Positions 39,552 to 58,832 of a stretch of 60,441 nt of DNA are shown one piece after another (the stretch's first letter is position 1; each line of letters opens with the position of its first letter). The stretch spans positions 1 through 60,441 of the IMG/VR virus record IMGVR_UViG_3300045283_000290. The stretch is one strand, 5' to 3'. A program made the translations under genes and the position numbers. The notes under the pieces were generated by a model. The model was not told the origin of the DNA and did no database searches. It saw only the letters and a list, made by a program, of their open reading frames with translations. Source of the stretch: a virus.

Positions 39552-40685
39552 TCAGACGCCGATCATGCCGGAGACGGCGACCGGGCTGCGAAGGATCGTG
39601 CCCCAGGTGCCCGACGTGTGCTTCTGCTTCCACGCCGATGACTCCGGCACCAGCTTGTGGGCGCGCAGCTTCTCGGTGAACGAGCAGTAGGCGACCGGCT
39701 GCCCCTGAATCTTCTTGGCGATAAGCTGCAGCACGTTGCCGGCGGACGAGTAGCCCTGCGGGTTGTTGGTGGTCTGCGTGCCGTACTGCGGCGCGGTCTT
39801 GATCTCGATGTTCGGGTAGCCCTTCTTGAGCAGGTCCGCGACGCTCACGCCGAAGGAGTTCGTGAAGGTGAGCGCGATCTCGCTCTGCGGGCTCATCGCG
39901 AGGAGCATCGGAGACTTGAGGTCGAGCGCGCCGTTCGTCTGCGCGATCAGCTTGTTCACGAGCGCGATGATGTCGTTGTAGACCTCGTTCGCGGTCGCGT
40001 TCGGCGTGTTGCCGCTGAACCAGCCAGTGCCGCCCGCCGCCTTCGTCGCCGGGGTCAGGAACGCCGACAGGAACGGGTTGTTGATGATGCCGTAGTTCTG
40101 CAGCCCGCTGATGCCGAAGGCGTAGCTGAGGTTCTGCGCGCGGTTGAGCAGGTCGGACGCCGCGCCCTGAAGCTCCGAGACGTAATTGATCTTCGCGAGG
40201 CCGGCGCGGTCGATCTCGCGCTCGCCGTAGCGGACCATCGTCTGGAAGTGGTAGCTCTGGAACTGCGGCCAGTTGAGGTTCACGCCGGCGCGGCCGTTCT
40301 CGTTGAAGTCCCCGTAGCTGGAGACCTCGCCGGTGATCTCGATCACCGGGAACATGTCGACGTCGGTGACCCACGTCCCGCGCTTGTTCTCGCCGAGCAT
40401 CTCGCCGAACGCGAGCGGCGACAGGATGACCCGGATAATCTCGGGGTCGATCATGGTCGAGAGGATCGCCGGGATGGCCGAGTTCGGGTCGGTCACCAGC
40501 GGACCGGCGGTGACGTCCATGCCGAGCGCGTCGAGCCCGAGCGCGTCCATCGCCAGCAGGTCGCCGTTGCCGTTCTTCCACTCGTCCGCGACGTAGGTCT
40601 TGATGCTCCGCGGGAGCACGATCCCCTTGGCCGCGATCATCGCCCGGTGATCGGCGAACCTGGCGAGAGCCTCTTGGCGGTTCAT
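39552..40685 (-). CDS. major capsid protein (DUF2184-type)
   Basis: 377 residues. SAIPAILSTMIDPEIIRVIL SPLAFGEMLGENKRGTWVTD and the following LNWPQFQSYHFQTMVRYGER EIDRAGLAKI are the DUF2184 capsid pattern (HK97-fold family). Late motifs LLAMSPQSEIALTFTNSFGV and KKGYPNIEIKTAPQY also fit. It builds the icosahedral head. Encoded just downstream of the cement protein and scaffold, as in related phages. Confidence 0.9.
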   Translation of the reverse strand: MNRQEALARFADHRAMIAAKGIVLPRSIKTYVADEWKNGNGDLLAMDALGLDALGMDVTAGPLVTDPNSAIPAILSTMIDPEIIRVILSPLAFGEMLGENKRGTWVTDVDMFPVIEITGEVSSYGDFNENGRAGVNLNWPQFQSYHFQTMVRYGEREIDRAGLAKINYVSELQGAASDLLNRAQNLSYAFGISGLQNYGIINNPFLSAFLTPATKAAGGTGWFSGNTPNATANEVYNDIIALVNKLIAQTNGALDLKSPMLLAMSPQSEIALTFTNSFGVSVADLLKKGYPNIEIKTAPQYGTQTTNNPQGYSSAGNVLQLIAKKIQGQPVAYCSFTEKLRAHKLVPESSAWKQKHTSGTWGTILRSPVAVSGMIGV

Positions 40686-42981: not shown

Positions 42982-43179
42982 TCAGTGACCGACCACACGC
43001 TGGACGGCCTCCGGCTCGCGCTCGATCAGCATCAGGAGCACGCGCGCCGGCCCGTCGGGACGACGGCGGTCTTGCTCCCACTGGCGAAGCGTCTGGAGGT
43101 TGAGGCCGAAGGTAATCGCGAACTTGCGCTGGCTCATCCCGAGCCGCTCGCGGATCTCCCGGACGCTGGACTCAGCCAC
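42982..43179 (-). CDS. XRE/NadS-like helix-turn-helix protein
   Basis: 65 residues from a GTG inside the end of the protease gene. [40 protein letters not shown] is a typical Cro/XRE domain, close to NadS or HigA-type antitoxin regulators (..[17 protein letters not shown]). Such proteins bind operators and repress their own transcription. An earlier ATG at 43230 overlaps the protease coding region and is less likely. Placement inside the head operon is unusual. Confidence 0.75.
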
Positions 43180-44320
43180 CGAGCGCCTCCGCAAGAACGG
43201 CCCACTGCAAGTCGGCGAGCGAGTCGGCAACGACGACGTCGGGCCCGGCGCGCCCCTGCTCGACGAGGGCGACGTGGTTGACCCGGATGTCGCGCATCAC
43301 GCCGTCGTAGTCCTCCCCCTCCGGCGTTCGGCCGGGCGTCATGTCCGCCCGGTAGTGATAGCCCATCGAGAGCTGCTTCTTCTCGCTGTTGTTGATCGCC
43401 TCGATGGCCGGCTTCGTCCAGATAGTCAGGCTGTTGTCGAGGTACGGGTGCGAGAACGCGCCCTCGGTGCCGACCGAGCCGACGACGTCGTACTGCTGCG
43501 CGTCGTCTGCGCTTACCGGGATGTGCTTGCGGAGCAGCTGGACACCGTTTGACGACGCCGCGCCCCTCGCGAGTTCGTCGGGGTCGCGGTAGAGCCGGTA
43601 GAGCCGCCCCGGGTCGAGGCCGAGCTTCTCCCACCCCGGAATCTCGTTCCCCTTGTAGGGGCAGACGTTGGCCTTCGAGATGTGCACGCGCGCGACGCGC
43701 AGCCGGCCGTCCTGGTCCTCCTCGCGGCCGCCCACCGGCTGGTCCGCGGCGAAGTCGGTCGCCATGTCCCACGGCAGATAGTCGTAGGCGAGCGCCTGGT
43801 CCGACGCCTGCTTCTCGCGATCGAGCCCCATCACGTCGATCGCGTAGTCGACGCCCTCTCGGGTAAGCCAGGCGTGCCCGAACTCATGATGCGCCAGGCC
43901 GAGGTCGCACAGCTCGCCGCGGCCGACCTTCGACGGGATGTCTCCGTCCCATGTCGGCCCGTTGAGGAAGAGCCCGCGCATCGTGTCGCTTGCGCCGCCA
44001 GATAGCTCCCACTTCTGGCATACGGCCTTCGCTGCGATCGGGCCGGCGACAAGCGTGCAGCGGGCCGCGCCCTCGGCCGGACGGAACATTGCGCAGTTCG
44101 CGCACTTCTTCGGGCCCGGCGCCTCGTCGACGTAGCCGGCCTCCGCCTTCGTCAGCGACGGCTCGTCCTCGGCGTGCTCGTCCTCCTCGCGCTCCTCGGC
44201 GAAGAACTCGGCCAGGCCGGCCTCGAGCGCGCGCCACGCGCTCTCGGTCATGTCCTCGCCCTGGCGCCGCGTCGAGAGGGCGGCCGGGATCCCGGAGCTT
44301 GGCGCGGTGACGAGCGTCAT
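43172..44320 (-). CDS. prohead protease (DUF2213) with N-terminal four-Cys and HEFGH region
   Basis: 382 residues. Residues about 205-370 carry the DUF2213 pattern: [70 protein letters not shown] and [17 protein letters not shown], with [19 protein letters not shown]. The N-terminal 160 residues are extra: C73-x2-C76-x11-C88-x12-C101 resembles a HiPIP-like cluster, and HEFGH (145-149) has the HExxH form of zinc proteases. It would cleave scaffold and capsid precursors. The role of the extension is unknown. Internal ATG 44251 is an alternative start. Confidence 0.75.
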
Positions 44321-45128: not shown

Positions 45129-45343
45129 TTGTAGATCGCCGCGCGCACGGCGGCATCCTTCGCCTCGAGCAGCTTGCGCAGCGCGACCCTCCGCTCCGGG
45201 TTGCGCGGTAGTTCGTCCACGAGATTGTGGGCGAGCAGGTGGAACGGGGCGGAGACCGTCTTCAGGTCGTCGCGGAGGTGCGCGAAGTCGAAGAACTGAA
45301 GAATCGGCTCGGTCGTGACCGTTGCGTCTTCGTGGTGTGCCAT
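45125..45343 (-). CDS. small conserved head-region protein
   Basis: 72 residues with TEPILQFFDFAHLRDDLKTV, PFHLLAHNLVDELPRNPERR and ALRKLLEAKDAAVRAAI. This small helical protein is widely conserved in phages near portal or capsid genes (Acb2-like or similar 'ILQFF..AHL' proteins). In some relatives such small proteins bind cyclic nucleotides, but that cannot be asserted here. Its start overlaps the SPP1-gp7-like gene stop. Confidence 0.7.
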   Translation of the reverse strand: MAHHEDATVTTEPILQFFDFAHLRDDLKTVSAPFHLLAHNLVDELPRNPERRVALRKLLEAKDAAVRAAIYK

Positions 45344-46134
45344 CAGCTAAACCCCTTCACTACCGGCCGCCAGGTACAGCGGCACCGGATAAGCTCGCCG
45401 GGCATGATGCGCCGGCGCACCCTCGGGTCCGGATCATACCAGCCCTCGCGGATGTTGAATCGCTTGCCGTGGTTCGCAAGGTGCGTCCGGCGCGGTTCCT
45501 TGCCGGCCTTCGAGTGCAGCCATACACCCTCCTCGAGGCCGAGGTCCAGCTCGCGCACGCGCCGCAGCGCCGTCGTCGCCTTGTTGTTCTGATCGAGCGC
45601 GATGAGGTTCGCGCGGTCCTGCGTCACGCCGAATCGCTTGCGCAGCTGGCGGGAGAGCGCGGCGAGGTCGCGGCCCTCGGTCACCGACCGCATCACCAGC
45701 CCCTCGACCTGGCCGTGGTACTCGACGCCGATCGACTTGATGAGCGAGACGTTCTCCGCGACGACGGCGTCGACCACGTCGCGCATCGCCGGCGTCATCT
45801 GGTAGCGGACCGTCATCCCGGCGTCGCGGAGTATCTTGCGCAGCGCGGCGTCGGAGCGCTGCCACGCCTTCTGCTGGAACCACTTCGCGAGCTTCGGGGC
45901 TGCCGCGTTGAATCGCCGCTCCCACCTGTCGCCGAGGACGCGCAGCTCGCGCTGAAGCTCGCGCGCCGGCGTGGCGTCGGTCGCCATCCGCGGCGGCTTC
46001 TCCTCGTATTGATCGGCGAGCACGGTCTCATAGTCGTCCGCCATCTCGGCGATGAGCCTGCGCATCTGGCGCCGGTAGGCGGCCGCGAGGCCCGCGTTCG
46101 GCCAGACCGGGCGGAGCGGCCGCGGCTTCTTCAC
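45343..46134 (-). CDS. head morphogenesis protein (SPP1 gp7/MuF-type)
   Basis: 263 residues. AYRRQMRRLIAEMADDYETV, VDAVVAENVSLIKSIGVEYH, LRKRFGVTQDRANLIALDQN NKATTALRRVREL and the C-terminal HLANHGKRFNIREGW ... RRIMPGELIRCRCTWRPV match the SPP1 gp7/Mu F minor head protein. Late Cys/His residues fit the family's metal-binding end. It works with the portal in capsid assembly. Located directly after the portal, as usual. Confidence 0.85.
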   Translation of the reverse strand: MKKPRPLRPVWPNAGLAAAYRRQMRRLIAEMADDYETVLADQYEEKPPRMATDATPARELQRELRVLGDRWERRFNAAAPKLAKWFQQKAWQRSDAALRKILRDAGMTVRYQMTPAMRDVVDAVVAENVSLIKSIGVEYHGQVEGLVMRSVTEGRDLAALSRQLRKRFGVTQDRANLIALDQNNKATTALRRVRELDLGLEEGVWLHSKAGKEPRRTHLANHGKRFNIREGWYDPDPRVRRRIMPGELIRCRCTWRPVVKGFS

Positions 46135-46308
46135 CTATTTGGTCCCCAGATTCGTATTGCTGTCGTTACCGACTCCGCAGATTTGGAAACACGGATTCGA
46201 GCCAACGACGGTGAAAGTTGAAGAAGCGACGATTGGCCCACCAGCGCCAGAGATTGGGCCAGCGACCGTAAATGAACGCCAGAACAGCCTTCCCCTACTT
46301 CGCAGCAT
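46135..46308 (-). CDS. small unknown protein in a low-GC patch
   Basis: 57 residues from ATG 46308, with GAGGCGG upstream: MLRSRGRLFWRSFTVAGPIS GAGGPIVASSTFTVVGSNPC FQICGVGNDSNTNLGTK. The DNA between about 46135 and 46440 is visibly less GC-rich than its surroundings. Other frames here (to 46391 or 46443) are also open. It may be a short decoration-type protein or an insertion; no repeats flank it. Confidence 0.4.
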   Translation of the reverse strand: MLRSRGRLFWRSFTVAGPISGAGGPIVASSTFTVVGSNPCFQICGVGNDSNTNLGTK

Positions 46309-46494
46309 TGCCGCCTCGTTGTAAAAGGGCCAATTCCTCCCCGAAAAAGCGGCGGCGCCGGGGCCGGATTGCCGAGACGCCGCTCGCTCATTCAGGTTGC
46401 CCCGATGCCGGGGATTATTTTCCCTTTTTCCCGCGCTGTCCACCCCCGAACAGCGCGTCGATCTCGGGCAGGTCCGAGAGGTCGTCGTCGTCGG

Positions 46495-49400
46495 TCAGGT
46501 CGAGGCGACCGAGCCGCCCACGCCGGTCGAGGAGAACTTCCCCTCCGGGTCGCGCGGGTGTTTGCTCTCCTCCCACTTCGCCTCGTCGCCGGCGAGGCCC
46601 TCCGCGATCTTGCGGTCGCGGGCGCGGTTGAGGAAGTCGTCGAGCCGCTTCGCCGGCGCCAGGACGACGCCCTCGGTCTCATTGTCGTGCTGCGACGGGT
46701 CGCCGGCCTCGCGCTCCGCGTAGTAGTAGCGCGTCATCGACGTGTCGCCCTCGTGGTCGCCGGCGTGCCCCGTGATGCGCACCTTGAGCCCGCTCTCCTC
46801 GTACGCCTCCTTGATGGCGTTCGCCTGGAGCGAGAGCCCGGCGTCGACGCCGCCCTTCGGGAAGGTCGCCTCGTAGCCGCCGAAGCCGCCGCGCGGCTGC
46901 ACGAGCCAGATGCGCCCGTCGGCCTCGCGCACGATGACGCCCGAGGACGGTTTCTTGCCGGTCGGCACGGTAAACTCGGGCTCGTCGAGATCGATCTGGC
47001 CGTCGACGCCAGCCCAGTCCGACGGCGCGCGCCACGCCTTGAACGGAACGCCGTTTAGCTCCTTCACCGGCATGGCCTCGCCGGCCGGGACGACCATCGT
47101 GCCCGTCGGCTTCTTCGGGTCGCCCTCGGCGCCGAACCTGCGGGCGCGCTCGGCGATGTCGGCCTTCCGCTTGACCAGCTTCTCCGCCAGCTTGTCGTCG
47201 CCGCCCGCGGCCTTGACGGTCTCGCGGATTCGGTCGTCCGGGATCCCGGTGACGAGGCGCGCGCTCTCGCGGAGCTGCCCCGGCGTCATCTTGCCGAACA
47301 GGCCGGCCGAGTCGCCGTTGACCGCGGGGTCGCGCAGGCTGTCCAGCTCGCCGACGCTGTCGCCGAACGCCTTGCCCTTGGGACCGCCCTGCGCGCGGTA
47401 CTCCAGCGCGCCGCCGAGGTCGAGCGCCGTCGGCACGCCGCCCACGGTGCCGATGTTGTCGCCGCCGAGGCCGACCGCGTCCCAGTTGCCGAGCCAGGCG
47501 TGCACGGCGAACTCGCGCTGCGCCTCGCGCCGCTCCTCCTTCGAGAGCTTCGAGACGTTGTCCTTCGATAGTTTCGACATCTCGGTCGCGATCGAGCCGC
47601 CGCCCTCGACCGGGCGGTACTTGAGCGTGGGCGAGCCGGCCAGGCCGTAGAGCGCGGCCGCGACCATCTCATTTCTGACGTGCGCCGGTGACTTGCCCTT
47701 CTTGACGTAGAACCGCTTGCCGTCGGCATCCTCGAACACGCCGCCGGGGTTCGAGCCCATCTGCGCGCCGACCTTCGTGAGCTTGGACGCGTCGAGCGGC
47801 GCGCCGATGTTGCGGGGCCCGGCCGGCTTCGCCCACCCGACCGACGGGTGCGAGGCCGGGCCGTACGGTAGCCCGAGCTGCGGCGCGCGGAACGTGCCGC
47901 TGCCGCCGCCGCCGGTGATCTTGCCGGGAATCTTCAGGTGGGTCGGCGTGCCTCCGCCGGAGCCCGCGGTGAACTTGCCGCCGTCATCTCGGGGGTGCTC
48001 GGCCTCGCGGAACTCGTCGGCCGCCCCATCACGCGGGGCGTCGCGGCCGAAAGGGGTGACGTTCTCGCCACCGCCCTCCCCACCTTCGCCGCCTTCGCCG
48101 CCCCCGCCGCCGCCGCCGCCGCTCGCGCGCTTGCCGCCGGGCTCGAGGCCCGCATCTTCCTCCTCCTGGAGGTCCGGCACGTCGTCGACGTCGATGTCGG
48201 GGTAGCGGCTCTTAGGATCATCGGCGATCGCCTGGCGCTCCTCGACCTGGTCGATGACGCCGTCGCCGATGCGGATGCTCGCGGTCTCCGCGCGCATCTT
48301 CTCAAGCTCGGCCTCCTCCTTCTCGGACATCGCCTCGAGCGGCACGAACTCGTGCGTGATGTCGTCGTCGATCTCACCCCACAGCGAGAGGTTCATCACC
48401 CACCCGACGTAGTCGAGCTTCGGCGCGTACAGCTTGCCCTGGTAGGAGCCGATCGTCTCGTCGAACGCCCGCAGCTCGCCGTCGGACGTGGCGTTGAGGC
48501 CCTGCGGCTGCATGCCGGTGAACTTGACCGCCGGGATGCGCGCCACGCTCATGATGTCCTCGTGCGCCGAGGACTTCAGCTCGTGGAGCCCGGCGATCGG
48601 GTGCGCGACCGACTTGACGTCCTCCGATTCTTTGTTGGCGACGAACATGCCCTGGTTGTCGCGCATGATCGTGAACCCGGCGATGCGCGCGATAAGGTCG
48701 GCCGCACCGCCGCCGGGCGCCAGCAGCGTCGAGAGGTCGGTGAGCAGCACCATCGTGGCGTAGGACTGCACCAGGTCGGCGACGCTCTCGCGCGTGCGCA
48801 CCCAGATGTCGACGTACGGCTTCGCCATCTGAGTGAGCGAGAGGCCGCCGAACGAGTAGGCCGGCTTGAGCAGGTCGGGCACCGGGCGCCCGATGAACGT
48901 CGGGATGCGGGAGCGATGAATCTGCCTCCCCATCACGTACCAGACCTGCGGGTTGTACCAGTCGAGCGCGAGCGGATTGCTCGCGTTGTAGGTCATCGGA
49001 TAGACCCACATCGGCTCGATGTGCGCGACGCGCTTGAGCCAGTCGCGCCCGACCTTCGCCTTGAGGGCATCGCGCAGCTGCTCGCGGCTCAGTCCCGGCG
49101 GGACGAGCGGCTGCTTTAGTTCCTCGTCGTCGTCCTTGCCGTCGTCGAGGAACAGGTGGCTGCGCCCCATCAGCCCGTCGTAGAGCGCGGCGTCGCAGAA
49201 GCGGTCGACCAGCTGCAGGTGCTTCTCCATGTCCCGCAGCTCGCGAATCTTCGCGCTCTTGTCGTCGTCGCCGAGCTTCGTCGCCCGCGAGGCCGGGCCG
49301 TTCGGCTTGCGCTTCTCCGCGATGCGCGCCGCGGCCGCCTCGTCGCCCTTGTCGCGCTTCTTCTCGTCGTCCTCGCCGGTGCCCTTCCAGCGCCAGCCCT

Positions 49401-49863
49401 TGCGCGTCATCTCGGTCGCGATCGTCTCGCTGATGACGCGGAACTCCGGCCGCTGCGCCAGCTCAGAGAGCAGCGGGTAGCCGAGGAACATGAGCCCCTC
49501 GGATTCGACGGCGCCGAGCAGGCCGCCGGTCAGCCACTGCTGCTGCGCCCACGCGTTGTTCGCCACGAGCGCGCTGTCGCTCGCCATCCGGTGCTCGCGC
49601 GCCGGCATCGCGGCCTTCGGGTGGAGGAACTGCGTCGCGTACCTGCCCTCGATCCGGTAGGGGCACCAGTCCAGCGTGCGCTCGCGCTTCTTCGCCGCCG
49701 CCTGGCTGGCCTCGACCAGCGCGCCCATCTGCTCGATGCTGATGCGCGTCTTCGCCGGCGCGGGCTTCGGCTCGGCCGGCACGGTGGCGACGGGGGCCTT
49801 CCTCCGCGGCGGGCCTGCACCCTCGCGACGGCCGCCCCACCCACCCTTGCGCTTGTAGGCCAT
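46495..49863 (-). CDS. portal protein (DUF1073) fused to kinase-like and Nudix regions
   Basis: 1122 residues, about twice a normal portal. Residues 60-560 are a DUF1073 portal (LAQRPEFRVISETIATEMTR KGWRW, WVYPMTYNASNPLALDWYNP, SYATMVLLTDLSTLLAPGGG). A polyglycine linker (~578-600) and HPRDDGGKF (~624) follow. Residues ~690-905 look like a kinase fold: GVFEDADGKRFYVKKGKSPA HVRNEMVAAALYGLAG, HAWLGNWDAVGLGGDNIG, and ALDLGGALEYRA. Residues ~970-1085 have a Nudix box (GGVDAGLSLQANAIKEAYEE SGL; the usual Arg is Lys). A second KHPRDPEGKF lies at ~1104. The frame ends ..GSVAST, while a -1 frame runs on with an acidic tail (LTDDDDLSDLPEIDALFGG) to 46415, so the annotated C-terminus may be frameshifted. 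Confidence 0.8.
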   Translation of the reverse strand: MAYKRKGGWGGRREGAGPPRRKAPVATVPAEPKPAPAKTRISIEQMGALVEASQAAAKKRERTLDWCPYRIEGRYATQFLHPKAAMPAREHRMASDSALVANNAWAQQQWLTGGLLGAVESEGLMFLGYPLLSELAQRPEFRVISETIATEMTRKGWRWKGTGEDDEKKRDKGDEAAAARIAEKRKPNGPASRATKLGDDDKSAKIRELRDMEKHLQLVDRFCDAALYDGLMGRSHLFLDDGKDDDEELKQPLVPPGLSREQLRDALKAKVGRDWLKRVAHIEPMWVYPMTYNASNPLALDWYNPQVWYVMGRQIHRSRIPTFIGRPVPDLLKPAYSFGGLSLTQMAKPYVDIWVRTRESVADLVQSYATMVLLTDLSTLLAPGGGAADLIARIAGFTIMRDNQGMFVANKESEDVKSVAHPIAGLHELKSSAHEDIMSVARIPAVKFTGMQPQGLNATSDGELRAFDETIGSYQGKLYAPKLDYVGWVMNLSLWGEIDDDITHEFVPLEAMSEKEEAELEKMRAETASIRIGDGVIDQVEERQAIADDPKSRYPDIDVDDVPDLQEEEDAGLEPGGKRASGGGGGGGGEGGEGGEGGGENVTPFGRDAPRDGAADEFREAEHPRDDGGKFTAGSGGGTPTHLKIPGKITGGGGSGTFRAPQLGLPYGPASHPSVGWAKPAGPRNIGAPLDASKLTKVGAQMGSNPGGVFEDADGKRFYVKKGKSPAHVRNEMVAAALYGLAGSPTLKYRPVEGGGSIATEMSKLSKDNVSKLSKEERREAQREFAVHAWLGNWDAVGLGGDNIGTVGGVPTALDLGGALEYRAQGGPKGKAFGDSVGELDSLRDPAVNGDSAGLFGKMTPGQLRESARLVTGIPDDRIRETVKAAGGDDKLAEKLVKRKADIAERARRFGAEGDPKKPTGTMVVPAGEAMPVKELNGVPFKAWRAPSDWAGVDGQIDLDEPEFTVPTGKKPSSGVIVREADGRIWLVQPRGGFGGYEATFPKGGVDAGLSLQANAIKEAYEESGLKVRITGHAGDHEGDTSMTRYYYAEREAGDPSQHDNETEGVVLAPAKRLDDFLNRARDRKIAEGLAGDEAKWEESKHPRDPEGKFSSTGVGGSVAST

Positions 49864-50351
49864 CAGCGCAGCCCCCGGAGAACCGCCAGCGCGGTGTTGA
49901 GCGCGCGCCTGACCGAGATGCCGTCGCTCTTGCCGCGGCGCTCAGCGAGGCACCTGTGGCCCTCCAGGCAGGCATTGACGTCGGGGTTTAGCGCGAGCCA
50001 CGCCCGCCGCTCGTTCGTGAGGCGGTCGAGCCGGCACGCCTGGCCGGTGCGCACCGCCATAAACTCGTCGGGCAGGAGGTGGCCCTTCTCGTTGTTGCAG
50101 GTCGCGCAGCAGATGACGATGTTCTCGATGGCGTCGCTCCCGCCGCGGGCCTGCGGAATCCGGTGGTCGCGCGTCGGCGCGCGCGGCGTGTTGACGCCGC
50201 GGCTCATCGGGTGGCCGCACCACGGGCACGGCTTGCCCAGGAACCGCAGGAGGTAGCCACCTCCCTCCATCGTGAAGCGCTCGCGCTCGCGCGCCCCGAT
50301 CGGCCGCATGCGCAGCGCGGTCCCGGCGATCTGCTCCGGCAACACCTGCAT
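49863..50351 (-). CDS. HNH endonuclease
   Basis: 162 residues from ATG 50351 (175 if the in-frame ATG at 50390, inside the palindrome, is used). The HNH core is clear: PCPWCGHPMSRGVNT, TRDHRIPQARGGSDAIENIV ICCATCNNEKGHL, giving two Cys pairs and the D-H...N...H-type site. HNH nucleases next to portal and terminase genes often assist DNA packaging by nicking or cutting at termini. Its start lies 19 bp from the AT-rich palindrome. Confidence 0.85.
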   Translation of the reverse strand: MQVLPEQIAGTALRMRPIGARERERFTMEGGGYLLRFLGKPCPWCGHPMSRGVNTPRAPTRDHRIPQARGGSDAIENIVICCATCNNEKGHLLPDEFMAVRTGQACRLDRLTNERRAWLALNPDVNACLEGHRCLAERRGKSDGISVRRALNTALAVLRGLR

Positions 50352-50369
50352 CGCCCCTTCCCTCCGGGA

Positions 50370-50396
50370 ATCAACTTGATTAGTAATCAAGTTGAT
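50370..50396. promoter_or_regulatory. 27-bp perfect AT-rich palindrome between divergent genes
   Basis: Arms ATCAACTTGATTA and TAATCAAGTTGAT separated by a single G. It sits between the leftward HNH/portal operon and the rightward gene at 50425 in a very GC-rich genome. Such a symmetric site is a likely operator for a dimeric regulator controlling both directions. It also contains the upstream ATG of the HNH frame. Confidence 0.6.
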
Positions 50397-50751: not shown

Positions 50752-50903
50752 CGGTCGATTGGACGCGCTGGTGCGAGGGGCCGGAGACGCAGGCGCGGCT
50801 GAGGGCCGAGTACCTGGAGACGATCGCCAAGGAGCGCGATGCCGCAGCCGCCCGGTGGAAGCGGATGACGCCCGCGCAGCAGGCCGCATGGCCGCGGGTC
50901 TAG
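50748..50903 (+). CDS. short unknown protein
   Basis: 51 residues from a GTG overlapping the previous TGA (GTGA): VTVDWTRWCEGPETQARLRA EYLETIAKERDAAAARWKRM TPAQQAAWPRV. Helical with several Trp. Its 3' end converges on the large terminase gene (4-base overlap). Confidence 0.55.
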   Translation: MTVDWTRWCEGPETQARLRAEYLETIAKERDAAAARWKRMTPAQQAAWPRV

Positions 50904-52597
50904 CGCCGGCGACGCCCCGCGGCCGCGAGCGCCTGGACCACGTCGGGCGTGAACGCGGCGGGCCCGGCCTCCACCCTGGCGAACCGCATCATGCAGCCGT
51001 CGGCGAGGTTCGGCGACGGCATGCCCTCGGGCGCCTTGTCGATGACGACCTTCCCCACGCCGTTCGTCGCGTAGGTCGCCTGCGATAGCTCGCGCTCCAG
51101 CTTGTCGAGGTTCGGCATGTCGGGGTCGAGGTCGATGATGTCGTCGGGCTCGCACGCCTGGCCCTTCTCGATCCACAGCCACGTCCGGTGGAAGCGACGG
51201 CGCAGGTCCATCCAGCCCTGCGCCTTGGCGTTCTGATAGTAGTCCTTGTTGAGCCGCCCGCCCTCGCCCTCGCGCCCCTTCGTCCCCTCGACGATGCCCT
51301 CGGGGTCTACGACGGCGCCGGATGCGCGCCAGCCGATGACGCGGTGCGTCTTGACCTTCTCCGCCCTCCGCCGGTCGTTGATCACGCGGGCATCGCCGCG
51401 CACCAGGGCGCCGAGGCCGTCGGCGTCGTAGCGCCACTCGTCGAAGCCGTGCTCGTCGGCGAGCGCGAACGCCCGCTCCACGGTGGCGAACGTGTCGGAA
51501 CCCTTGCCGCTCCACTCCTCGGCGACGCTGACCGTCGTGCCCTGGCCGCCGACGAAGGCGTTCGCGTCCTTGCCCTCGTCCGCGACGTCGAGCGCGGCGA
51601 GCTTGCGGCCGGACGGCGCGATGCCGAGCCGGCGCTTCGCCCCGATCGCCGCGCGCACCCACGTCCCGGGGATGACGATGCCGGCGACCGACGCCGATCG
51701 GTCGCGGTCGATCTCCTGCGCGACGACCACGGGGTCGAGGTCGCGCTGCTGGCGCTTGTACCACTCGTCGTCCTTGCGGGGGTCGTGGCGCCAGTCGAAG
51801 ACGAACGTCTTGACGCGCTTCTTGATGATCCGCTGCGCCGTCGGGTTCGCGCTGCCGTTGACCGAGGAGATGTCGATGCGGCAGTTCGTCGTCTGCGAGA
51901 GCGCGAAGTCGACGAGGTCCGGCCGCTCCAGGTACTCGGCCTCGTCCACGAAGTAGATCGACGTGCGGTCGCCGCGCCCGAGCTGGTCGCCGGCCTCCCC
52001 GGTGATGATCGAGCCGCTCTGCGGGAAGTTGATCCGCATGAAGGGCGCGTCGCGCCACGGCGTCCAGCCGCCGCGGAACTCCTCGGGCAGGTTCGTCATG
52101 AAGAGCCGCGCCTTCGGCAGGATCGGCTTGAACGTGCCGATCTTGTCGACGTACTCCTCCTTGCGGGAGCCGAAGCCCACCGCCATGCCCTCGAAGAATA
52201 GGCAGGCCGTGCAGGCGAACGCGACCGCCTCCCACGTGACGCCGCACTCGCGCGCCTTCTCCGTCGCGCCTGGCTCGCGCGAGCGCCAGCGCTCCCACAC
52301 CCAGTGAATCCACTCCCGCTGCTTCTCGAACAGCACGAACGGGACGATCGCCGGCAGGCCGATCTCGGGATTGCGCGGGTCGTAGGTGACGCCCCAGTCG
52401 CTGATGAAGTCGCAGATGCCGGCCGGCCCGGCCTTGTAGTACGCGCGGATGGAGGGGAGGTCCTCGGGGTGCGCGCGGATGTCGTCCAGCGCGGCGAGCC
52501 GCTGCGAGAAGATCGCGGCGTAGTCCGGGTTCTTGAAGTCGACGCGGTGGCGAGGCGCGAAGCTGACCGTCGGCGCCGCGAGCGCTCGGGCACTCAT
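50900..52597 (-). CDS. terL: terminase large subunit
   Basis: 565 residues from ATG 52597. ATPase part: KARECGVTW (114-122) is the deviant Walker A of many phage terminases, and IYFVDEAEYL (214-223) the Walker B with catalytic Glu. The C-terminal nuclease half shows LAALDVADEGKDANAFVGGQ, EWRYDADGLGALVRGDARVI and later acidic residues of the RNase H-like nuclease. It drives DNA packaging at the portal. The genes downstream (transcription is leftward) are the HNH and the portal fusion, separated by the two small rightward genes. Confidence 0.85.
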   Translation of the reverse strand: MSARALAAPTVSFAPRHRVDFKNPDYAAIFSQRLAALDDIRAHPEDLPSIRAYYKAGPAGICDFISDWGVTYDPRNPEIGLPAIVPFVLFEKQREWIHWVWERWRSREPGATEKARECGVTWEAVAFACTACLFFEGMAVGFGSRKEEYVDKIGTFKPILPKARLFMTNLPEEFRGGWTPWRDAPFMRINFPQSGSIITGEAGDQLGRGDRTSIYFVDEAEYLERPDLVDFALSQTTNCRIDISSVNGSANPTAQRIIKKRVKTFVFDWRHDPRKDDEWYKRQQRDLDPVVVAQEIDRDRSASVAGIVIPGTWVRAAIGAKRRLGIAPSGRKLAALDVADEGKDANAFVGGQGTTVSVAEEWSGKGSDTFATVERAFALADEHGFDEWRYDADGLGALVRGDARVINDRRRAEKVKTHRVIGWRASGAVVDPEGIVEGTKGREGEGGRLNKDYYQNAKAQGWMDLRRRFHRTWLWIEKGQACEPDDIIDLDPDMPNLDKLERELSQATYATNGVGKVVIDKAPEGMPSPNLADGCMMRFARVEAGPAAFTPDVVQALAAAGRRRR

Positions 52598-52818
52598 CGC
52601 AATAGCCCGGCGAGCGGGTGCCCCGCACGCACTCGACCGAAGCGCACCCACCTGCGGGCCGCCAGCTCGCACAGGGGCGCCGTGAGCGCGATTCCGTTGG
52701 CGCAGCCCGTGTGGGTCGCGCGCATCTTGCAACCGCACCAGCAACGGCGCCGCGTTTTGACCGGCAGCATGTAGCGCGGGTGCTCGACCGCCGACGCTCT
52801 TCGACCCCACTCGCTCAC
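52594..52818 (-). CDS. small zinc-knuckle-type phage protein
   Basis: 74 residues from GTG 52818: MLPVKTRRRCWCGCKMRATH TGCANGIALTAPLCELAARR WVRFGRV. The RCWCGCK...THTGCANG block is characteristic of a small basic phage protein with clustered Cys/His. The start overlaps no stop but lies two bases from the TGA of the upstream small gene. Coupled with terL by ATGA. Confidence 0.6.
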   Translation of the reverse strand: MSEWGRRASAVEHPRYMLPVKTRRRCWCGCKMRATHTGCANGIALTAPLCELAARRWVRFGRVRAGHPLAGLLR

Positions 52819-57125: not shown

Positions 57126-57491
57126 ATGCGCCGAGTGATCGTCGAGAGCCCCTACCGGGGCAAGGACCGCGCCGAGACCGAGCGGAACCGCAGGTACGCG
57201 CGAGCGTGCCTGCGGGACTGCCTCGTGCGCGGGGAATCGCCGCTGGCGAGCCACCTGCTCTACACGCAGGCCGGCGTCCTCGACGACGCCGACGAGGAAG
57301 AGCGCAACCTCGGCATCGAGGCCGGGCTCGCCTGGGGCGTCGTCGCCGAGGCGAGCGTCGTCTACGAGGACCTCGGCATCAGCCCGGGGATGGCGCGGGG
57401 GATCGAGCAGGCGCTCGGCGACGGCCGGCCGGTCGAGTACCGGCGCCTTCCGCCGCTCGCGCTTCGGCTCGGACTGCTTTCCGGCCGGTGA
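57126..57491 (+). CDS. DUF7768-like protein
   Basis: 121 residues from ATG 57126: MRRVIVESPYRGKDRAETER NRRYARACLRDCLVRGESPL ASHLLYTQAGVLDDADEEER NLGIEAGLAWGVVAEASVVY EDLGISPGMARGIEQALGDG RPVEYRRLP matches the DUF7768 family of phage proteins (a nucleotide-binding-like Rossmann/SLOG-type fold related to DUF4406). The enzymatic role is unknown. The last 15 residues overlap the opposite methylase gene. Confidence 0.75.
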   Translation: MRRVIVESPYRGKDRAETERNRRYARACLRDCLVRGESPLASHLLYTQAGVLDDADEEERNLGIEAGLAWGVVAEASVVYEDLGISPGMARGIEQALGDGRPVEYRRLPPLALRLGLLSGR

Positions 57492-58742
57492 AGGTCTCCC
57501 ACCTCCGCACGGCGAGGTCGCAGTAGGTCGGGTCGACCTCGAGGCCGACCGCCCGCCGCTTCTCGATCTCAGCCGCGATGATCGTCGTCCCCGAGCCCAT
57601 GAACGGGTCGAGCACCGCCTCGCCTGGCCGGGTGTTGTTGACCATCGGGCGGCGCATGCACTCGACCGGCTTCTGCGTGCCGTGGCCGGTGCGGGCGTCC
57701 TTGCCCTCGGTCTTGCTCGTGAAGCCGACGTTCGAGTTGATGTCCCACACCGTCGTCTGCTTGCGGTCCCCGTTCCAGTGCGAGCGGGCGCCGCGCCGGA
57801 CGCCGTAGAAGCAGCACTCGTGCTGCCAGTGATAGTCGCCCATCGCCATCGCGAAGTGCGGCTTGTTCCAGATGATCTGCGCGCGGAGGAGGTAGCCGGC
57901 CTGCTGCAGCGAGCGCTGGACGACCGAGCTGCGCAGCCCGGCGTGCCAGATGTAGGCGACGTCGCATCCGCAAATCTGCCAGACCACCGTCCAGTCGGCC
58001 TGGTCGTCGTTGTAGACGGCGCCGCTCGCCGAGAAGTTCCGCTTCATCACCTTCTTGCCGTCCTGGCTCAGCTTCAGCTTGGTGTCGATGCGCTCCTTCC
58101 GCCAGGCCGGCCGGTAGTCGATGCCGTAGGGCGGGTCGGTGATGAGCAGGTGCGGATTGAGGTCGCCGCAGGCGAGCGCCACGTCGTCGCCGTCGGTGCT
58201 GTCGCCGCACAGCAGGCGGTGGTCGCCCATGATCCACAGGTCGCCCGGCTTGGTTACCGCGACCGCCGGCGGCTCCGGCACCGCCTCGGGGTCCGGCCCG
58301 TCGGTGCCGAGCGAGACGCCGAAGACGCGGAGCTGCGCCTCGGAGAACCCGAGCAGCGGCAGGTCGTAGCCCTCGTTCTTGAGTTCCAGCAGATCGCCGC
58401 GGAGCAGCTTCGCGTCCCACCCGGCGAGGAGCGGCAGCGCGTTGTCCTCGATGCGGATCGCCTTCTTCTCCGCCTCGCTGAGGCCGCGGCGCTGGACGTA
58501 CGGCGCGCCCTTGAGCCCGGCGAGCTGCGCCGCCTCGAGCCGGCCGTGCCCCTTGAGGATGACCCACGCCTCGTCGACGACGATCGGCTGGTCGAAGCCG
58601 CGCTCCTTGAGGATGGTCGCCAGCGCGGCGACCTCGTTCTCGGGGTGCGTGCGCGCGTTGTTCGGATACGGGACGAACCTGTCGAGCGGCGCCCACCCGC
58701 TCGCCATCTTGCGGCCGTCGACCGCGAACGGGTCGGTCTTAA
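57379..58742 (-). CDS. ParB-like/DNA methylase fusion, 5' end cut by an IS
   Basis: 442 residues if started at ATG 58707. N-terminal ParB-like domain: FVPYPNNARTHPENEVAALA, GFDQPIVVDEAWVILKGHGR LEAAQLAG. C-terminal N6/N4 methylase: LLCGDSTDGDDVALACGD, LLITDPPYGIDYRPAW (catalytic DPPY), HGTQKPVECMRRPMVNNTRP and AVLDPFMGSGTTIIAAEIEK (SAM loop). Phage enzymes of this layout modify DNA against restriction. The IS at 58743 breaks the frame a few codons before; reading in from the IS end, ATGs at 58764 and 58803 join in frame, so translation may persist. The C-terminus (57379) overlaps the DUF7768 gene. Confidence 0.8.
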
Positions 58743-58767
58743 CATGCCTATCCGGTTGACGCATACA
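58743..58767 (+). repeat. left terminal repeat of the IS
   Basis: Starts CATGCCTATCCGGTTG, identical over 16 bp to 3601-3616 and the reverse complement of 4359-4374, and differing by one base from the 293-bp element over the first 15. Confidence 0.85.
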
Positions 58768-58832
58768 GATACTTGTGCTAGTGTTTCCGACGTTGACGGG
58801 CATTTCGCCCTCCGATGTTGGAGTAAAGAGCC

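Follow-up and report, generated by a model that had tools for sequence, protein, structure and literature searches.

The window analysed here, a stretch of 60,441 nucleotides that makes up IMG/VR virus record IMGVR_UViG_3300045283_000290, carries a head gene module on its minus strand (Table 1). At the place of the portal gene, with the terminase before it and MuF, protease and capsid genes after it, lies an open reading frame of 1122 residues with no internal stop. It encodes a portal, a Gly/Glu-rich linker, a first HPRD motif, a domain with a predicted kinase fold, a Nudix domain and a second HPRD motif. The order portal-HPRD-kinase-Nudix-HPRD recurs in a single frame in independent contigs, at 66-72% identity, and therefore does not result from a frame error; a chimeric assembly is ruled out by the same observation. 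The initial annotation had read portal, kinase-like region and Nudix as parts of one protein, joined by a Gly-rich linker and two HPRD-x-x-GKF motifs. This layout holds: the linker and both motifs are present, the domain figures come close to the measured ones, and the gene is not split by a frame error, the case which that annotation had set against itself. What it missed is an ADP-ribosyltransferase (ART) domain, into which the nearest complete relatives continue beyond the second HPRD motif, where the window protein ends.

Table 1 Features of the portal fusion gene and of the surrounding head gene module in the window
Feature	Position	Strand	Evidence
Terminase large subunit, upstream of the portal fusion	50900..52810	-	phrog_2 E 1.6e-20
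HNH endonuclease gene, between terminase and portal	49863-50390	-	
Portal-kinase-Nudix fusion, 1122 aa	46495..49863	-	uninterrupted ORF; domain order repeated in independent contigs
Complete portal body, aa 1-560	48184..49863	-	PF06381 E 2.6e-64; alignment with 2_D05 portal; PDB relatives 9b41, 8fvh
Gly/Glu-rich linker, about aa 576-602	48058..48138	-	direct reading of translation
First HPRD motif HPRDDGGKF, aa 623-631	47971..47997	-	motif search
HipA/CtkA-like kinase-fold domain (predicted fold), aa 694-912	47128..47784	-	AlphaFold model; Foldseek; residue conservation
Nudix domain, aa 950-1086	46606..47016	-	Pfam; alignments; model pLDDT 94.3; top PDB match 3i7u
Nudix catalytic helix KEAYEESG, aa 1018-1025	46789..46812	-	alignment, direct reading
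Second HPRD motif HPRDPEGKF, aa 1102-1110	46534..46560	-	motif search; stop 12 residues on
MuF/head morphogenesis protein, gene after the portal fusion	45343..46134	-	PF04233 E 4e-10; phrog_324 E 1e-70
DUF2213 head maturation protease	43172..44320	-	PF09979 E 1e-45; phrog_2229 E 3e-81
Major head protein	39552..40685	-	phrog_264 E 9e-55

The portal itself is complete. Residues 131-529 match the DUF1073/Phage_portal_3 family over positions 3-356 of the 357 in its profile, with 217.6 bits against a curated cut-off of 33.8, so that the family named in the initial annotation was correct. The portal of Aeromonas phage 2_D05 (516 aa) aligns over almost its entire length with the portal body, in a genome with the same gene order (terminase, portal, head morphogenesis protein, head maturation protease, capsid-type protein), and has no extension. 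The additional 560 residues in the window are therefore an add-on. No second portal gene was found within the window.

The HPRD motifs mark the borders of the modules. In the family, 47 strict motifs were observed, compared with none in shuffled sequences; none falls within a recognised domain, and all are located between modules. Neither the major capsid protein nor any of the remaining ORFs of the window contains the motif, which argues against a common site of the maturation protease. Since the capsid protein lacks it, the motif is possibly not the site of this protease, and may instead be a docking or packing tag.

The sequence of the kinase region matched no model in Pfam, NCBIfam or PHROGs, HipA_C and HipA_2 included. 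Its AlphaFold model, computed from an alignment of 100 sequences, reached a pLDDT of 96.6 and a pTM of 0.93, and shows two lobes, with the Lys, Glu, Asp-Asn and Asp of kinases kept, and a helical C-terminal part. The top Foldseek match in the PDB was CtkA, a HipA-like kinase of Helicobacter pylori (E 1.8e-5, probability 1.00, TM 0.57), and each of the 50 PDB matches listed is a kinase-fold entry. The window protein has K721, E732, D795, N803, D815 and GG817-818. Among 100 homologues, K721, E732, N803, GG817-818, K829 and R899 do not vary and 99 retain D815, while the invariance of D795 is partly by construction, because this residue lies within WLxNWD, the motif-scan pattern used to collect the relatives. 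A single motif scan of IMG/VR viral contigs returned 402 relatives, and GTDB genomes yielded 69. Two residues before the Trp of this motif, the family has either His or Asp.

At the sequence level, the relationship to HipA is faint. HipA_C was matched weakly by 14 of the 100 relatives (best E 3e-5) and HipA_2 by six (best E 1.1e-3). An hhalign comparison of the family profile with seven HipA_C proteins gave a probability of 29 over 48 columns, aligning part of the N-lobe alone, and the profile retrieved nothing but repeat-protein artefacts from the PDB sequences. Membership in HipA_C is ruled out by scores below the curated cut-off. As modelled, the domain thus has a HipA-like fold and the active-site residues, yet stands outside the Pfam families as curated. 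Assignment to a defence-system model was likewise rejected: matches to PDC-M03A were weak and limited to few members.

The kinase fold hosts reactions besides protein phosphorylation, and the domain might accordingly be another enzyme, such as an AMPylase, a glutamylase or a small-molecule kinase. The weak similarity to HipA points in this direction, as does the spacing between the catalytic Asp and Asn, which is 8 in 88 of the 100 members and 5 as read in HipA_C proteins. However, the Lys/Glu/Asp/Asn/Asp set is complete, and a HipA-like protein kinase comes nearest among solved structures; we regard a different activity as rather unlikely. It would concern only the reaction catalysed, and is compatible with the domain being virion cargo, as discussed below.

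Some relatives of the kinase occur in other protein contexts. In two ORFs from Fuscovulum and Rhodobacter (L105, L108), the kinase is joined to a dual-specificity/tyrosine phosphatase domain (PTP-SAK); these two and the related ORFs L106, L107 and L109-L111 are short proteins of about 290-470 aa. In Pseudomonas genomes (L138, L140, L160, L163), kinase-Nudix proteins of 560-773 aa, measured from stop to stop, have neither portal nor ART.

The Nudix domain was recognised directly by Pfam (PF00293, aa 971-1086, E 1e-11, 45.5 bits against a cut-off of 21.1). Its catalytic helix is of the REUxEExGU type, reading KEAYEESGL after a preceding PKG, with KE..EE.G intact. Both the profile of the subfamily (E 4.5e-13, nearly full coverage) and the fold search with the model (E 2.9e-10) gave Aquifex Ap4A hydrolase (3i7u) as the nearest match. 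It was followed among the fold matches by DR1025, the Ap6A hydrolase Ndx1, MutT1 and RppH, with ADP-ribose pyrophosphatase and NADH pyrophosphatase ranking lower. An ADP-ribose or NudE type was rejected, other types being nearer by profile and by fold. The nearest matches, of the Ap4A hydrolase/RppH type, point to a substrate class, and the enzyme would thus likely act on dinucleoside polyphosphates, NTPs or RNA 5' ends. Structure prediction and fold search, as proposed in the initial annotation, therefore bear out both of its enzyme assignments: the kinase-like region, closest to CtkA, and the Nudix domain, closest to Ap4A hydrolase, with the active helix lying near the position given for its box.

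The kinase is not restricted to portals. It is located on the portal in 20 of the best 80 IMG/VR kinase contigs, some of them near-identical, and in one bacterial contig (L104, Sulfuritalea), where the fusion belongs to a prophage; elsewhere it sits on the DUF2213 protease, on MuF or on free large proteins, frequently with a terminal ART. Two cultivable Pseudomonas phages, Jeremy and Dolphis, also have the cassette. Across the relatives, kinase, Nudix and ART are fused in either order or encoded by adjacent genes. Starting from the Nudix side, the kinase was found at 63 of the best 80 IMG/VR loci, in the same ORF at 44 and nearby at 19. Among 50,697 phage records, the Nudix subfamily occurs in eight and the kinase in 19, with an overlap of seven (hypergeometric 2e-24, for records that are not independent). 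The kinase tree requires at least four changes for the portal fusion and at least three for the protease fusion, gains and losses being indistinguishable, which indicates that the cassette moved between head proteins.

ART exceeds the Pfam cut-off in several relatives (L012, L015, L020 and L175) and stays below it in L002. In L175 (4767-10007, plus strand), the portal protein carries, in addition to kinase, Nudix and ART, an Acb1 domain (PF23474, E 3.5e-33) between portal and kinase; Acb1 is an anti-CBASS enzyme. Other companions are a zinc peptidase-like domain in L005 and an InPase in L012. The window protein resembles polyvalent effectors, with several disparate enzyme domains on one protein of a head-gene module. 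In a further contig (L036, 4527-8564), the portal frame is broken by a region with a weak match to Hint_2 (intein-type), after which portal sequence resumes.

Where such cargo resides can be judged from solved virions. The portals of E217 and Pa193 belong to the same Pfam family as the portal of the window; in both, the C-terminal barrel reaches into the interior of the head, and no density is visible for residues 529-765 (PMC10329688, PMC11042391). In the E217 portal (L256, 9124-11421), the stretch without density encodes an InPase domain (PF18823, E 3e-43), so that at least one isolated phage with a solved structure has cargo on a portal of this type. In Yersinia phage fHe-Yen8-01, a kinase-ART protein is followed two genes on by a Nudix of the same subfamily, and the depositors annotate both as particle-associated. 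There, the three domains are off the portal and the association with the particle is a note in the record; a literature search for this phage found no paper. The structural proteins which carry the cassette in the relatives (portal, protease and MuF) are all head proteins. By analogy, kinase and Nudix are likely located in the head of this virus, in line with the suggestion of the initial annotation that the enzymes ride in the virion, for which the geometry of the E217/Pa193 C-terminus and the Yersinia phage record both speak.

The fusion, the intact catalytic residues and the repeated association with head proteins and with ART are observed in the window and its relatives. They are probably best read as an enzyme cargo tethered to the portal inside the head, which would be freed and injected to take over the host or to counter its defences. 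A working portal would carry the cargo module at its C-terminus and, because its crown faces the interior of the head, twelve kinase and twelve Nudix copies would be packed within the capsid. As the portal remains in the head, the cargo could act in the host only when cut free. The Gly-rich linker, which looks flexible, would allow this, with the resident DUF2213 head protease as the obvious candidate cutter, and the freed domains would leave the head as the DNA does. Once inside the host, the kinase might modify a host or defence protein by phosphorylation, and the Nudix might hydrolyse a dinucleoside polyphosphate, a 5'-triphosphate RNA end or a nucleotide alarm signal. The presence of ART, and once of Acb1, on the same protein in related phages indicates early host takeover and counter-defence.

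Instead of being released, the tethered enzymes could serve in assembly or packaging, the kinase for example acting on terminase or head proteins and the Nudix on nucleotides near the motor. The packaging motor docks on the portal (PMC11042391), and the release of the cargo is itself something we infer. However, homologous portals have their C-terminus inside the head and away from the motor, the syntenic portal of 2_D05 exists without any extension, and the cassette is also found on protease, MuF or free proteins. A packaging role therefore appears improbable, and the suggestion of the initial annotation that the domains act on nucleotides during packaging finds no support. The companion domains (ART, Acb1, zinc peptidase-like and InPase) fit takeover and counter-defence, the framework given for such domains in PMC5512222 and PMC9503650, and this favours release and injection over packaging. 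That the cargo is cut off and injected as effectors, the other option raised in the initial annotation, would thus be the most likely mechanism.

An ART was not detected anywhere in the window with the family profile at maximum sensitivity, nor in the interval 46135-46494 behind the fusion gene. Having neither ART nor Acb1, this virus would rely on kinase and Nudix to do the work. A reading that we consider very doubtful is that the extension is mainly passive, the remnant of a portal-kinase-Nudix-ART effector that lost its key toxin. The nearest complete relatives do end in ART, and the window protein stops 12 residues past the second HPRD motif, with no trace of ART following. Against a remnant speak the intact catalytic residues of both enzymes and their lower divergence: in a comparison of the window with L002, pN is 0.19 for the kinase, 0.18 for the Nudix and 0.31 for the portal body. 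Because of GC-rich codons and high divergence, we used only relative pN, although dN/dS was also computed, and the lower divergence of the cargo could reflect a recent exchange and not function. Moreover, a relative with portal and kinase but neither Nudix nor ART (L028) suggests that smaller sets may persist.

Injected multi-enzyme proteins, and Nudix and ART fusions to the portal, are already known. Polyvalent virion proteins (Iyer et al. 2017, PMC5512222) are multi-enzyme products of head genes, predicted to be packaged and injected; like the window protein, they combine several enzyme domains in one large protein, and fusions to portal and MuF are included. The kinase group described there, from Verrucomicrobia/Chlamydia and Bacteroidetes elements, is said to be without a C-terminal subdomain and to have a His-Asp motif. 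By this description it may differ from the kinase of the window, which is HipA/CtkA-like, has the WLxNWD motif and, in its model, a helical C-terminal part. In Iyer et al. 2022 (PMC9503650), Nudix and ART are likewise fused to portal, MuF and protease, with injection proposed. Most phage Nudix proteins are assigned there to NudE-like or NadM-like clades, whereas the subfamily of the window is nearest to Ap4A hydrolase/RppH, and a HipA-like kinase partner was not found in the passages of that article consulted.

The E217/Pa193 portal gp19, solved in the virion, is similar in its portal family and in the C-terminal position of an enzyme domain, but this single cargo domain is invisible in the map, and gp19 has neither kinase nor Nudix. 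The T4 Alt protein, as summarised in PMC5512222, is likewise a head-packaged enzyme, injected together with the DNA; in contrast to the window, it is a separate ART protein and not a portal fusion. With the CtkA/HipA-like kinases, the window domain shares the modelled fold and the set of catalytic residues, and differs in its weak sequence similarity, below Pfam cut-offs, in the spacing of the catalytic loop and in its virion-gene context.

In the literature searched (open journal papers), no paper joined the kinase to portal, Nudix and ART, or described a HipA/CtkA-like kinase as steady partner of an Ap4A-hydrolase-like Nudix. Some public entries name single family members PI3/4-kinase or portal. 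The kinase family is apparently undescribed, a recurrent head-borne phage enzyme that carries no Pfam, PHROGs or NCBIfam label and is linked with one Nudix subfamily and with ART. More tentatively, the HipA/CtkA-like kinase, the dinucleoside-polyphosphate-type Nudix and ART may form a standard virion effector set, moved repeatedly among portal, protease and MuF, packed into the head and delivered jointly against nucleotide-signal defences or for host reprogramming. A fixed number of enzyme copies per portal would mean a defined dose per infection. With the cargo placed on the portal, its release can be measured as a difference between virions that still hold their DNA and virions that have ejected it, and Acb1 in the same slot opens counter-defence to direct tests.

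The head maturation protease of the window contains, at aa 70-104 and before its protease domain, a Cys-rich, HiPIP-like stretch (Pfam HIPIP E 0.04, below the cut-off). By eye, a comparable Cys pattern follows the Nudix in the portal fusion of L001. Close to the kinase gene of phage DSL-LC01 lies a gene whose annotation reads high potential iron-sulfur protein. At 57379-58803, on the minus strand, the window encodes an N6/N4 DNA methylase whose N-terminus weakly matches ParB-N.
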